From an uncultured Caulobacterales bacterium (GTDB taxonomy: Bacteria > Pseudomonadota > Alphaproteobacteria > Caulobacterales > Caulobacteraceae): DNA of 64,000 bases. The translations under genes were made by a program, and so were the position numbers. Within the stretch, counting starts at the first letter, position 1. Each line of letters begins with the position of its first letter. Below are positions 60,476 to 63,997 of the stretch, piece by piece. Location: assembly GCA_903884425.1 (NCBI GenBank), contig CAISEP010000023.1:124001-188000 (forward strand), given 5' to 3'. The notes below the pieces were generated by a model. The model was not told where the DNA came from. It saw nothing but the letters and a program-made list of their open reading frames with translations, and ran no database searches.

Positions 60476-61825
60476 TCAGGTTCCGTAGCGGACCTCGACG
60501 TCTATGCCGATCTGGCGGAGGAAGGCCGAGGGCAGGACGCCGCCGGCGCAGATGATCACGTCGTCATTGGCGAGGGTGCCGCGGCGGTCGCCGGCGACCA
60601 GGGTGACCGTGTCCGGGTCGATCCGCTCCACGTCCGTCTCCATCGAGACCCGCAGCCGACCCGCGGCCCGAGCAGCCTCCACCCGGTCCATGTTCCGCCG
60701 CTTGGCGCGCTGGAAGGCCTGGCCGCGATAGACCAGGGTCACGGTGGCGTCCGTCTCCTCCACCAGGCTTGCCGCGGCCTCGAGGGCACTGTCGCCGCCG
60801 CCGACCACCAGCACCCTGCGACCGGCATATTGCTGCGGATCGATGAGCCGGTAGACGACCTTGTCCAACTCCTCCCCCGGAACGCCCAGGGTGCGGGGGG
60901 TGCCGCGGCGGCCGATGGCCAGCAGCACGGTGGCGGTGCTGATGGTGCGGCGGGAGGTGCTGAGCTCGAAGCCCGAGCCCGAGGCCCGCACCGCATCGAC
61001 CCGCTCGTCATGGTGGATGCGCAGGCCCGCCCGGGCGATCACGTCGCTCCAGAAGGCCAGCAGCGTCTCCTTGTTCACCTCGCGGAAGTTCATCTGGCCG
61101 TGCCCGGGCAGCTCCGCCGGCTGGGTCATCACCACCTTGCCCCGTGGATAGTGGGCCACGGTGCCGCCGAGGGTCTGCTGTTCGAGGGTGATGAAGCGCA
61201 GGCCCGCCAGCTTCGCCGCAAGACTGGCGGAGATGCCCGCCGGACCGCCTCCGATGATGGCCAGGTCGTATTCCGTGTCCCGTCGCCGTCCCTGGGACTT
61301 CAGCCGCCGGGCGATCTCGGCCACCGCCTGGCGACCCTGCTCGACGGCGTTGCGGATCAGGCCCATGCCCCCCAGCTCGCCGGCAATGTAGATGCCCGGA
61401 ACATTGGTCTGGAAGTCCGGGCCCACATGCGGCAGCTCCACCCCGCGGCGCTCCGTGCCGAAGACCAGGGTGATGGCCCCCACGGGGCAGGCCGCGCGGC
61501 ACGCCCCGTGGCCGATGCAGTGGCTGGGCTGGACCAGCTCGGCCTTGCCCCGGATCATGCCCAGTATGTCCCCTTCCGGGCAGGCCTTGGCGCAGGCGCC
61601 GCAGCCGATGCACTTCACCGGATCGATCACCGGATGCAGGGACGGGGGCTCGTCCAGGCCCGTCTCCCGGGCGTCGCGCTGACGGGCGAGGCTGCGGGCC
61701 TCGACGGCCCGGCGGCGCAGGAACCAGTAGATCAGGATCGGCAGGCACAGGGCCGGATAGAACAGCCACTGCTCGTCCAGCCACGGGGGAAGGGTCAGTC
61801 CGTTGATCCACTCCGGCAAGGTCAC
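60476..61825 (-). CDS. Membrane-anchored ferredoxin-flavoprotein fusion with permuted thioredoxin-reductase-like domain
   Basis: A 449-residue protein. One N-terminal helix (about residues 20-36) is followed by two ferredoxin motifs: C72, C75, C78, C82 and C103, H106, C109, C113, where His replaces one cysteine. Next comes TNVPGIYIAGELGGMGL (about 140-156), which in thioredoxin-reductase-like flavoproteins is the C-terminal FAD contact. Only then follow the FAD motif LAIIGGGPAGISAS (about 188-201) and the NAD(P) motif VLVVGGGDSALEAA. The protein ends at IGIDVEVRYGT, exactly where that C-terminal segment would be expected. No CxxC redox pair is present. GTG start, overlapping the ccmI stop. 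Function unknown; NAD(P)H-ferredoxin electron transfer is inferred. Confidence 0.8.
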   Translation of the reverse strand: MTLPEWINGLTLPPWLDEQWLFYPALCLPILIYWFLRRRAVEARSLARQRDARETGLDEPPSLHPVIDPVKCIGCGACAKACPEGDILGMIRGKAELVQPSHCIGHGACRAACPVGAITLVFGTERRGVELPHVGPDFQTNVPGIYIAGELGGMGLIRNAVEQGRQAVAEIARRLKSQGRRRDTEYDLAIIGGGPAGISASLAAKLAGLRFITLEQQTLGGTVAHYPRGKVVMTQPAELPGHGQMNFREVNKETLLAFWSDVIARAGLRIHHDERVDAVRASGSGFELSTSRRTISTATVLLAIGRRGTPRTLGVPGEELDKVVYRLIDPQQYAGRRVLVVGGGDSALEAAASLVEETDATVTLVYRGQAFQRAKRRNMDRVEAARAAGRLRVSMETDVERIDPDTVTLVAGDRRGTLANDDVIICAGGVLPSAFLRQIGIDVEVRYGT

Positions 61826-62943
61826 GGCACTCCGTAGCTGCGGGCGGCGTCGCGGATCCGCGCCTGGGCGGCGGCGTCGTCGGCAAAGGCGGCCAGGCCG
61901 TGGGTGAGGGCGGCGTGGGCCCGGTCATCCTGTCCCATCTGCTTGCGGGAGCGGATCAGCATGATCCAGCCGTCGGTATCCCTGGGCGAGGTGGCCAGCC
62001 GGGCCTCGAGCTTGGCCACCATCCCTTCCACCATGGACTGCCGGTCCTGGGGGGAGAGCTGCTGGGCCGCCTGGACCTGAGCCGCGGAGGGGCCGGCCAT
62101 GGTGCCGGATGCGGCTGCGGCTGCGGGTGCGGATGCGGCGGCCATGGGCGGCTTCACCTCCGGCGGCAGCCGGTCGGCCACATCGATCCCGCTGGCGGCG
62201 GAGACCTTCAGGATCGCCTCCTTGGCGGCCACGGCCTCGCTGGAATCCGGGGCCTGGGCATGGAGAATACCGAACAGCTCGTCCAGCGCCCCCCGGCTGT
62301 CGCCGCGCTCATGCCGCAGGCGGGCCATGTAGATCCTCGCCCGGGCGTCGGCGGGGTCGGCGGCCAGGGCCTTGCGGAAGGCGGCCTGGGCCTCGGTGGT
62401 CACCCTGTCCCCGGCGGCCTTGGTGATCGCCTCGCCATAGGCGGACTGGAAGGCGGCATTGCCGGGCTTCAGGGCCACGGCCCGGGCATAGGCACGGACG
62501 GACTGGTCGTACTTCTGGGTGGCGTAGTAGGACCAGCCGAGCATGCGCCAGCCGTCGGCATCGTCGGGCTTGGCCTCGAGCCGCTTCTCCAGCCGGGTCA
62601 TCATGGTGTCCACGTCCGGCAGGGCCGGGGGGGCACCGGGCGCGCCGGCGGTCGCCGCAACGCCGGGGAGCCCGCCCGCGCCCGGCGTCGGGGTGGTCCC
62701 CTTGTCCCCGGTGACGGCATAGAGCGTTCCTGCGGCCACCAGGACCGCCGCGCCTGCGCCGCCGGTCAGGACCCACTTCCGCGGATAGCCGAACAGAAGC
62801 GCCTCGCCCGCGGGGGCTGCCGCGGCGGGGGCTTCCGGTGTTCCCGCGGGGGGCGGGGCACCCGGCCGTCCGCGCAGGAGCGGATAGAGCACGAGGCCCA
62901 TCGCCACCGCGCCGAGCAGGAAACAGAGGATCATGGTGGCCAT
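61822..62943 (-). CDS. ccmI: Cytochrome c maturation protein CcmI (CycH-like)
   Basis: A 373-residue inner-membrane TPR protein that holds apocytochrome c for haem attachment. Two N-terminal membrane segments (MILCFLLGAVAMGLVLYPLL, and WVLTGGAGAAVLVAAGTLYAV near residue 62) flank a cytoplasmic loop, and the periplasmic part has TPR-like repeats (GWRMLGWSYYATQKYDQSVRAY, split here from its neighbours). The Ala-rich linker before the last domain is encoded by a GC-rich simple repeat (near 62105-62145). ATG 62943 chosen; an ATG at 62934 is possible. 44 bp after ccmH. Confidence 0.88.
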   Translation of the reverse strand: MATMILCFLLGAVAMGLVLYPLLRGRPGAPPPAGTPEAPAAAAPAGEALLFGYPRKWVLTGGAGAAVLVAAGTLYAVTGDKGTTPTPGAGGLPGVAATAGAPGAPPALPDVDTMMTRLEKRLEAKPDDADGWRMLGWSYYATQKYDQSVRAYARAVALKPGNAAFQSAYGEAITKAAGDRVTTEAQAAFRKALAADPADARARIYMARLRHERGDSRGALDELFGILHAQAPDSSEAVAAKEAILKVSAASGIDVADRLPPEVKPPMAAASAPAAAAASGTMAGPSAAQVQAAQQLSPQDRQSMVEGMVAKLEARLATSPRDTDGWIMLIRSRKQMGQDDRAHAALTHGLAAFADDAAAQARIRDAARSYGVP

Positions 62944-62987
62944 GGGGCGGGTCTCCGGTCGGGCGTCTGTCGTTCGATGTCGGGGGG

Positions 62988-63449
62988 TCAGCTGTAGGGG
63001 TCGGGCGTCTCGTCGTCCCCGGCCGGGTCGGTGGACCCCGTGCGGGCGGCGAAGACCAAGGCCGTGCCTGCGACGGCGAGGATGGCGAAGGGGCCGAGCC
63101 ACAGGGCCCAGGTGTCCGGCTGGAACGGGGGCCGCAGCAGCACGAAATTGCCGTAGCGGGCCACCAGGAAGGCCTTGGCCTGGTCGTCGGTGTCCCCGGC
63201 GGTCAGGCGCTCCCGCACCATCAGGCGCATGTCCCTTGCGAGGGGGGCGGCGCTGTCGTCGATGTTCTGGTTCTGGCAGACGACGCAGCGCAGCTCCTTG
63301 CTGATGTGCTGGGCGCGGGCCTCCAGCGCCGGATCGGCCAGCATCTCGTCCGGTTCCACCGCCCGGGCGGCCCCGCCGGCCAGCAGCAGGGCGAGGGCGG
63401 CGCAGCCCCCGGCCAGGGTTCGGTGACGTGTCCGGTGACGACCGGTCAT
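62988..63449 (-). CDS. ccmH: Cytochrome c maturation protein CcmH (CycL-like)
   Basis: A 153-residue periplasmic-facing thiol oxidoreductase that reduces the apocytochrome haem-binding cysteines. A signal peptide ([15 protein letters not shown] region) is followed by the signature [14 protein letters not shown] (CxxC near residues 54-57), [16 protein letters not shown] and [16 protein letters not shown], then a C-terminal membrane anchor. The ATG overlaps the ccmG stop (ATGA). The dual CcmH/CcmI split is normal in alphaproteobacteria. Confidence 0.93.
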
Positions 63450-63997
63450 TGTCCCGCCTCCAGTCTCTGGATCAGCGGCTGCAGGGTGTCGTGCCAGACC
63501 TCCGGCGTGATCGGGCCGATCTGCTTGTAGCGGATGCGGCCCTGGCGATCGACGACGAAGGTCTCCGGCGCGCCGGTGACGCCCAGGTCCAGGCTGAGGC
63601 GTCCGGCCTGGTCATTGCCGACCCGCTGATAGGGGTCGCCCAGCAACTTCAGGGTCTTGGCCCCGTCGGCCGGGTCATCCTTCCAGTCGACGCCGTAGAG
63701 GGGCACGCCGGTGGAGGCGAGCTGCATCAGATAGGGATGCTCCATCTTGCAGGCCCCGCACCAGGACCCCCACACGTTCACCAGCGTGACCTTGCCGCCA
63801 AGGTCGTCCCGGCGAAAGCCCCGGTCCCCCTCCCGCACCGGCCCGAGGTCGAAGGCGGGCACCGGCTTGCCGATGAGCACCGACGGCAGGGTGGAGGGAT
63901 CGTGCTGCAGCCCGGCCCAGAGGACCACGGCCAGAACGCCGAACAGGGCCAGCGGGGCGACGGACGCCGCCAGCAGGGCCGGACGGGACAGTCTCAT
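63446..63997 (-). CDS. ccmG: Thiol:disulfide interchange protein CcmG/DsbE
   Basis: A 183-residue membrane-anchored thioredoxin-like protein that keeps apocytochrome cysteines reduced in the Ccm system. The N-terminal helix is at about residues 10-30; the active site is [16 protein letters not shown] (CGAC near residue 81), and the cis-Pro loop [12 protein letters not shown] is characteristic of CcmG. The start at 63997 is inside the window, so the gene is complete; ccmF is expected just beyond the edge. Confidence 0.93.

Follow-up and report, generated by a model that had tools for sequence, protein, structure and literature searches.

Flavoproteins of the YpdA/Bdr type (PDB 7a76 and 7a7b) are built from FAD and NAD(P) Rossmann domains, and porin-cytochrome conduits of the PCC3 type have been described as systems of four parts with a quinone-linked model (He et al., 2017; PMC5566968). 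The inner-membrane partner (IMP) of PCC3 is marked in that paper by two WX3HX13H motifs and an SGXXG motif, and PCC3 has been kept as a candidate for iron oxidation (PMC10734462, PMC13386937); papers given here by PMC identifier are cited for their accessible parts. Here, we describe a gene in a stretch of 64,000 nucleotides (the window; positions 124,001 to 188,000 of contig CAISEP010000023.1, assembly GCA_903884425.1) from an uncultured Caulobacterales bacterium. Its product combines a membrane helix and a two-cluster ferredoxin with a flavoprotein resembling thioredoxin reductase (TrxR) and YpdA, and YpdA/Bdr chains were its best match in both sequence and fold. The permuted order of its parts, the conservation of that order, an IMP-like domain fused to long homologues, a tendency to occur with and next to IMP genes, and the multiheme genes nearby were computed here. 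We consider it likely that this permuted flavoprotein serves a PCC3-type porin-cytochrome conduit as its electron module in the cytoplasm.

Displaced FAD segment

The FAD and NAD(P) Rossmann core of TrxR-like flavoproteins with two dinucleotide domains was recognized by Pfam (Pyr_redox_3 at residues 190-441) and by fold matches. This core stops before the usual C-terminal segment, and the last residues of the chain are IGIDVEVRYGT. The segment, with TNVPGIYIAGELGG at residues 140-153, lies between the ferredoxin motifs and GGGPAG (residues 192-197), as the original prediction had proposed. In a phmmer search against the PDB, residues 188-446 in native order were aligned to residues 6-272 of the 326-aa YpdA/Bdr chain 7a76 (100.5 bits). 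The tail of 7a76 (residues 283-313), which is the portion absent from the C terminus of the window protein, was realigned to residues 138-167, with a score that is meaningless taken alone. When residues 125-182 were moved behind residues 183-449 (restored order), the match to 7a76 rose to 107.1 bits over residues 6-320. The match to TIGR04018 likewise extended from model positions 1-262 (150.7 bits) to 1-315 of 316 (159.7 bits), and the one control with a shuffled segment gave 143.0 bits over positions 1-264.

A profile of the segment only (54 columns, built from 24 of the 28 rows of alignment A1) was compared with the PDB. FAD/NAD(P) oxidoreductases or glutamate synthase small chains accounted for 24 of the 25 sequences found at E <= 1, several of them near-copies (e.g., glutathione reductase chains of 461-479 aa), and the 25th was an enamidase. 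The matches fall at what we take, for most of these chains, to be the place of the C-terminal FAD segment. In NCBIfam, nine of the 24 segment members matched the YpdA model (window member at 274-315 of 316, E 0.012), and the segment was also placed at positions 439-478 of 485 of the glutamate synthase (GOGAT) small subunit. Nine of the 24 matched Pyr_redox_2 in Pfam (window member at 260-291 of 291, E 0.017).

The order ferredoxin, segment, GxGxxG was found in 28 of 28 rows of alignment A1 and in 73 of 73 distinct blocks among the collected loci, which are those gathered here and no full survey. An order kept in this way is not due to chance or to an assembly error, and an assembly artefact was ruled out by the 73 distinct sequences that carry it. 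Regular expressions detected no candidate with the canonical domain order among the collected loci, and no second C-terminal FAD segment behind the NAD domain in 82 open reading frames (ORFs), repeats and cut copies included. At the level of sequence, the restored-order profile, the segment profile, an order shared by distant groups and the failure to find a second segment make it well supported that the protein is a circularly permuted TrxR/YpdA-like flavoprotein.

Several points weigh against this assignment. The segment is weak by itself (best PDB E 0.013), and a hidden Markov model of 25 TrxB sequences gave mean scores of 31.9 bits for the native order, 33.0 for the restored order, 33.2 for the core only and 32.5 for the shuffled form, a test that is uninformative because the local alignments mostly end ahead of the segment. 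Further, AhpF models and chains align co-linearly through the segment: TIGR03140 joins residues 142-355 of the query to 171-372, and 4o5q joins residues 141-366 to 170-386. The segment might accordingly be read as an AhpF-like linker or a remnant of a thioredoxin fold ahead of an unpermuted, truncated reductase. We regard such a reading as highly improbable, since AhpF was absent from the 25 PDB sequences of the segment profile, the C-terminal place in flavoproteins fits, and only one of the 24 segment members matched the AhpF homologue model of NCBIfam, as against nine for YpdA. Moreover, G20, G25, E26 and Q39 of the segment were invariant in the segment-profile alignment, and no other FAD segment, which the fold needs, was found in the chain by regular expression.

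A structure model of the window protein was built from 28 sequences, with a predicted local distance difference test (pLDDT) of 81.9 and a predicted template modelling score (pTM) of 0.71. Residues 184-447 of the model matched residues 2-273 of 7a76 (324-residue chain; Z 22.9, root-mean-square deviation 4.9, 262 residues, 27% identity), a sequential search that informs on the core and not on the position of the segment. Strands at residues 129-132, 145-148 and 443-446 and a helix at 156-178 form the layout expected if the cut falls in the hairpin before the segment. On the other side, the loop at residues 151-155 has a pLDDT under 50, and domain swapping in trans is conceivable as an alternative to docking in cis. 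In the permutation proposed here, the chain would have been opened at a surface hairpin directly ahead of the C-terminal FAD segment, the old termini would be joined by a short linker at about residues 179-185, and the new N terminus would have gained a membrane-anchored ferredoxin with two clusters. The segment would then presumably dock onto the FAD site in cis.

Fusion of a ferredoxin to the flavoprotein was borne out by Pfam (Fer4_10 at residues 64-114, 48.3 bits against a gathering cut-off of 25.5), and the membrane helix claimed for the N terminus appeared in the model at residues 18-54. Because a hydrophobic helix is followed by basic residues, the positive-inside rule would place the remainder of the protein in the cytoplasm. 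The ferredoxin motifs of the 449-aa protein are C72-x2-C75-x2-C78-x3-C82P and C103-x2-H106-x2-C109-x3-C113P. The replacement of Cys by His106 had been pointed out before, and the second ligand of motif 2 proved to be His in all 73 distinct blocks, which suggests a cluster with three Cys ligands and one His ligand (3Cys-1His). In the same blocks, the second ligand of motif 1 was Cys in 27, Ser in 44, Ala in one and Thr in one. The family thus departs from the classical all-Cys 2[4Fe-4S] pattern, with motif 2 reading CxxHxxCxxxCP in 73 of 73 blocks and motif 1 complete in 27. A divergent 506-aa relative (L077:3098-4615) has CxxGxxC in motif 1 and CxxHxxCxxxC without Pro in motif 2; no ORF with at least three CxxCH was present in its 7-kb stretch.

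A scan of GTDB contigs yielded 33 homologous loci, in Caulobacterales, Sandarakinorhabdus, Emcibacter, Woeseia, Bdellovibrionales and many Myxococcota or Deltaproteobacteria. A distant clade is represented by chains of 986 aa (L078:1083-4040, minus strand) and 973 aa (L079:1895-4813, plus strand), which contain extra Fe-S motifs and the same displaced segment before GAGPAG, so that the permutation is not limited to one subfamily. In both chains the core is followed by one more Fe-S motif and the tail is IMP-like, and L078 matches Fer4_11 (PF13247) above its cut-off. An ORF with 33 CxxCH is located near L078, and ORFs with 33 and 25 CxxCH adjoin L079. A cNMP-binding (cyclic nucleotide monophosphate) domain considered for the N terminus of the two chains was dropped; Pfam gave none for L078 at E <= 0.1 (24 families) and none among 25 of 29 for L079.

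Association with the IMP and multiheme cytochromes

In sixteen long homologues, mostly from Myxococcota or Deltaproteobacteria, the chain extends at its C terminus into a membrane domain in which five His residues are invariant (alignment A2). This fused domain contains two His pairs 14 residues apart (HX13H), a di-heme b pattern, and both pairs match a 308-aa IMP encoded in the genome of the Caulobacterales bacterium itself (BLASTP 2e-13, 30% identity over 88 aa). The structure model of a long homologue was poor (mean pLDDT 67.6, pTM 0.40); its fold was left unused, and only the His spacing was taken, from the alignment. A weak Ferric_reduct match was obtained in L009 (E 0.0095, below the cut-off).

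Past the window on the same contig (C23), the genes for cytochrome c maturation (ccm) run on to ccmF, located just outside the window next to ccmG-H-I, and are followed by divergent PCC3-type genes. These include the 308-aa membrane protein (C23:190193-191116), which is di-heme-b-like and was assigned to the PCC3 type by the published motif marks: it has about 300 aa, both WX3HX13H motifs and SGVAG. Two cytochromes with 24 and 27 CxxCH have matches to Cytochrome_C7 and related Pfam families. A 751-aa ORF with a match to OMP_b-brl_3 (3.7e-5, below the cut-off) and Phe as its last residue is a probable outer-membrane barrel or porin.

Co-occurrence was examined with residues 62-182 (ferredoxin and segment) as the flavoprotein probe. 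In the same family, the flavoprotein was found in five of 119 genomes, and a close IMP (E <= 1e-84) in the identical five. In the same class, four of 385 genomes matched at 1e-10, one of them (G156) by the ferredoxin part alone, and the other three had a close IMP. The Woeseia genome G502 belongs to a class taken to be Gammaproteobacteria; in this class, the flavoprotein was present in 42 of 350 genomes (G892 by the ferredoxin part and little more), and an IMP at E <= 1e-20 was detected in 40 genomes, all among the 42. Of 47 flavoprotein copies, 40 were on the same contig as an IMP, 39 within 10 kb of it and 37 divergent to it. The hypergeometric P for this class is 1.2e-50, a value that takes no account of relatedness among the genomes and so overstates the case. 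Within the phylum to which the Myxococcus genome G501 belongs, 52 of 195 genomes gave a flavoprotein match at 1e-10, five of them weak only. Multiheme ORFs (at least five CxxCH) were present in 23 of the 33 loci of the GTDB scan, and eight of the remaining ten loci are shorter than 10 kb. CxxCH motifs were counted in all frames, overlapping frames included, because ORF picking gave shadow ORFs in several high-GC loci; the count covers these 33 loci only, the later ones being mostly of about 3 kb.

The association is not without gaps, and these count against the proposed link. Two of the 42 flavoprotein genomes (G799 and G879) had no IMP match, and weaker IMP-like matches without the flavoprotein occurred in 9 of 119, 12 of 385 and 9 of 350 genomes. 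Two loci with full flanks (L023 and L025) lacked a multiheme ORF, and the multiheme frequency of 23 in 33 stands without a random-window baseline.

Some single loci showed further arrangements. In the Woeseia genome, a second close IMP (G502:C1:1477318-1478133) is distant from the single flavoprotein gene. A weak IMP-like match inside a 742-aa frame (G204:C53:392-769, locus L095), in a genome without a match to the flavoprotein probe, is perhaps another fusion. A single 1367-aa frame (L028:1167-5267) joins the flavoprotein to a 20-CxxCH cytochrome and has a shortened membrane domain, an arrangement that perhaps reflects a frameshift in the metagenome assembly. In L004, a 635-aa ankyrin-repeat protein (L004:7291-9195) is encoded between the flavoprotein and IMP genes.

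In a plasmid collection, one match at 1e-30 was obtained, on pEMTOL02 of Emticicia oligotrophica DSM 17448 (45.7% identity, 96% covered), where the homologue is annotated as "NAD(P)-binding domain-containing protein". Genes for CcsA, a 281-aa IMP-like protein with both WX3HX13H motifs, the flavoprotein, cytochromes with 23 and 40 CxxCH and a 538-aa protein lie there in one direction; the 538-aa protein had no Pfam match. The presence of this PCC3-like operon indicates that the module can reside on a plasmid. pEMTOL02 was typed as non-mobilizable. On this Bacteroidota plasmid, the operon with its own ccsA (L157; NC_018749.1, 73158-92447) is a few genes from a ParA-family gene.

The features of the window are listed in Table 1. 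The neighbouring ccmG, ccmH and ccmI, noted earlier, were confirmed by Pfam and NCBIfam matches, and the 4-bp overlap of the flavoprotein start with the ccmI stop suggests co-transcription with ccmG-H-I. From these neighbours, the original prediction had surmised a redox supply to the envelope. The direction of that idea comes near the present one, and it is the partner that differs: co-occurrence, adjacency and fusion indicate a PCC3-type IMP and giant multiheme cytochromes. A role in cytochrome c maturation, in which the protein would deliver reductant for apocytochrome thiols or heme by way of the probably co-transcribed ccm machinery, is very unlikely. The overlap and the adjoining ccmF-G-H would suit such a role, as would ccm-like genes near the flavoprotein in the Emcibacter and Woeseia loci and system II genes in L026 (both by eye), a CcmI-type protein in L045 (Pfam) and ccsA on the Emticicia plasmid. 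Against it, the reductase core (residues 183-449) has a single Cys, the flavoprotein occurs in just five of the 119 family genomes whereas ccm is general in such bacteria, and it tracks the IMP and is fused to an IMP-like domain in the long homologues. A thiol-disulfide role is unlikely for a core with one Cys, no CxxC and none of the YpdA Cys. The adjacent ccm genes probably serve the maturation of the about 50 c-hemes.

Table 1. Positions of the flavoprotein gene, its parts and the adjoining ccm genes in the window.
Feature	Position	Strand	Evidence
Whole gene: membrane helix, two-cluster ferredoxin and permuted TrxR/YpdA-like flavoprotein, 449 aa, GTG start	60476..61825	minus	
N-terminal membrane helix, about residues 18-40	61706..61774	minus	modelled helix 18-54; hydrophobic stretch, then RRR
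Ferredoxin domain, residues 64-122, CxxCxxCxxxCP and CxxHxxCxxxCP	61460..61636	minus	Fer4_10 64-114; alignment A1
His106 codon, at the site of the second Cys of motif 2	61508..61510	minus	H in 73/73 distinct homologous blocks
Displaced C-terminal FAD segment, residues 125-178 (TNVPGIYIAGELGGMGLIRNAVEQG...)	61292..61453	minus	profile and realignment results
FAD/NAD(P) core, residues 183-449 (GGGPAG ... VVGGGDSA ... IGIDVEVRYGT)	60479..61279	minus	Pfam, NCBIfam, PDB and model matches
ccmI-like ORF (true start probably downstream of the ORF start)	61822..63102	minus	TPR_CcmH_CycH; 4-bp overlap with the flavoprotein gene start
ccmH	62988..63449	minus	CcmH 1.7e-47
ccmG/dsbE	63446..63997	minus	TIGR00385 169.5 bits, above cut-off

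Candidate electron path and its direction

As a cytoplasmic electron module, the flavoprotein would be a fifth part of PCC3 and would link it to NAD(P)H. Electrons would pass from NAD(P)H to FAD and on to two Fe-S clusters, one of them probably of the 3Cys-1His type, and from these to the di-heme-b IMP, to cytochromes with 20 or more hemes and across the outer membrane. Judged from sequence, FAD and NAD(P) binding, ligation by His, electron transfer to the IMP and an outward direction are all predicted features.

We lean towards PCC3-type conduits being driven by NAD(P)H and not linked to quinones; in this view, the permuted TrxR fold is opened so as to place a ferredoxin with a His-ligated cluster between the flavin and the membrane, and the flavoprotein feeds the di-heme-b protein and then cytochromes with 20 to 40 hemes. 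It is quite unlikely that PCC3 is instead quinone-linked, with the flavoprotein in a regulatory role or as a side entry to the IMP. Di-heme b proteins that act on quinols are common, and a quinone link is the model of He et al. (2017; PMC5566968), whereas the IMP is fused to, adjacent to and in near-perfect co-occurrence with an NAD(P)H-type reductase and a ferredoxin.

Electron flow through a PCC3 that includes the flavoprotein is probably outward. General redox potentials and membrane polarity favour this direction. The same permuted module might run inward, with extracellular donors such as Fe(II) reducing PCC3 and the flavoprotein making NAD(P)H, which we consider unlikely. Most mineral donors could reduce NAD(P)+ only in an energetically uphill reaction, which the membrane potential also opposes, and no ion pump was noticed among the genes inspected. 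Published data point both ways: PCC3 is discussed as a possible conduit for Fe(II) oxidation (PMC5566968, PMC10734462), and the IMP gene of PCC3 copy 2 in Sideroxydans CL21 was significantly up in iron-oxidizing cells (PMC12442390), which points to a role in oxidizing iron, whereas both PCC3 clusters of Sideroxydans ES-1 were down on Fe(II) (PMC8788666). An NAD(P)H link would bear on this difference between ES-1 and CL21.

In the open-access literature (subscription papers and supplements being outside this scope), no permuted reductase was found, nor any flavoprotein tied to PCC3. Neither ferredoxin nor flavoprotein occurs as a word in the main text of PMC5566968, PMC8788666 or PMC13386937, and the main text of PMC12442390 does not use ferredoxin. 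In PMC10734462, ferredoxin appears 15 times, in the accessible part tied to Rnf and to table rows and not to PCC3; in a table there, 41 of 87 iron oxidizers have a "4Fe-4S ferredoxin" cluster and 42 have a periplasmic PCC3 subunit. The accessible part of PMC11475568 has nothing bearing on the proposed protein. Two points tell against the proposal and its newness: no biochemistry on any member of the family was found in the open-access literature, and He et al. (2017; PMC5566968) mention "another redox protein" beside most further IMPs. Relatives of the permuted flavoprotein may stand unnamed in the supplements of that paper.

If the assignment is true, the protein would be a naturally permuted form of the thioredoxin-reductase fold and also a conserved component of PCC3 that has been overlooked; PCC3 itself is known from genome surveys and expression data. 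It may then be an overlooked link from the NAD(P)H of the cell to giant heme-protein chains towards the cell surface. This would amount to a NOX-like (NADPH oxidase) reductase connected to the cell surface, present in Alpha- and Gammaproteobacteria, Myxococcota and Bdellovibrionales and plasmid-borne in Bacteroidota.

Comparison with known systems

In contrast to YpdA/Bdr, the window protein has its FAD segment on the N-terminal side (28 of 28 rows of alignment A1), an added ferredoxin and membrane helix, and GGGPAG where 7a76 and 7a7b have GGGPCG. Its TIGR04018 scores (150.7 bits, or 159.7 in restored order) lie below the curated cut-off of 339.9 bits. Unlike thioredoxin reductase (TIGR01292), it is without the redox-active CxxC in the NADPH domain.

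Ferredoxin-NADP reductases of the TrxR type (3lzw, 3ab1, 6gas) have a matching fold. They work without a dithiol site, and by analogy they are a plausible model for transfer from NAD(P)H to Fe-S clusters in the present protein. These enzymes are unpermuted and use separate ferredoxins or flavodoxins, whereas the window protein carries its ferredoxin in the chain, at the new N terminus.

The proposed path resembles, as a functional analogy, that of NOX and ferric reductases, in which electrons pass from NAD(P)H to FAD and to a di-heme-b membrane domain. It differs from them in its flavin fold, in the added Fe-S clusters and in the giant c-type cytochromes beyond the membrane.

Among the conduits, the redox genes reported next to the PCC4 IMP include an Fe-S gene of pfam13247 (PMC5566968), and L078 matches the same family, PF13247; L078 and L079 may be linked to the "redox gene" that He et al. 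describe for PCC4. With PCC3, the genome of the Caulobacterales bacterium shares an IMP of about 300 aa with two WX3HX13H motifs and SGXXG, cytochromes with 24 and 27 CxxCH and a probable barrel. The window protein is a known fold in a new arrangement and a proposed new part of a known conduit, PCC3.

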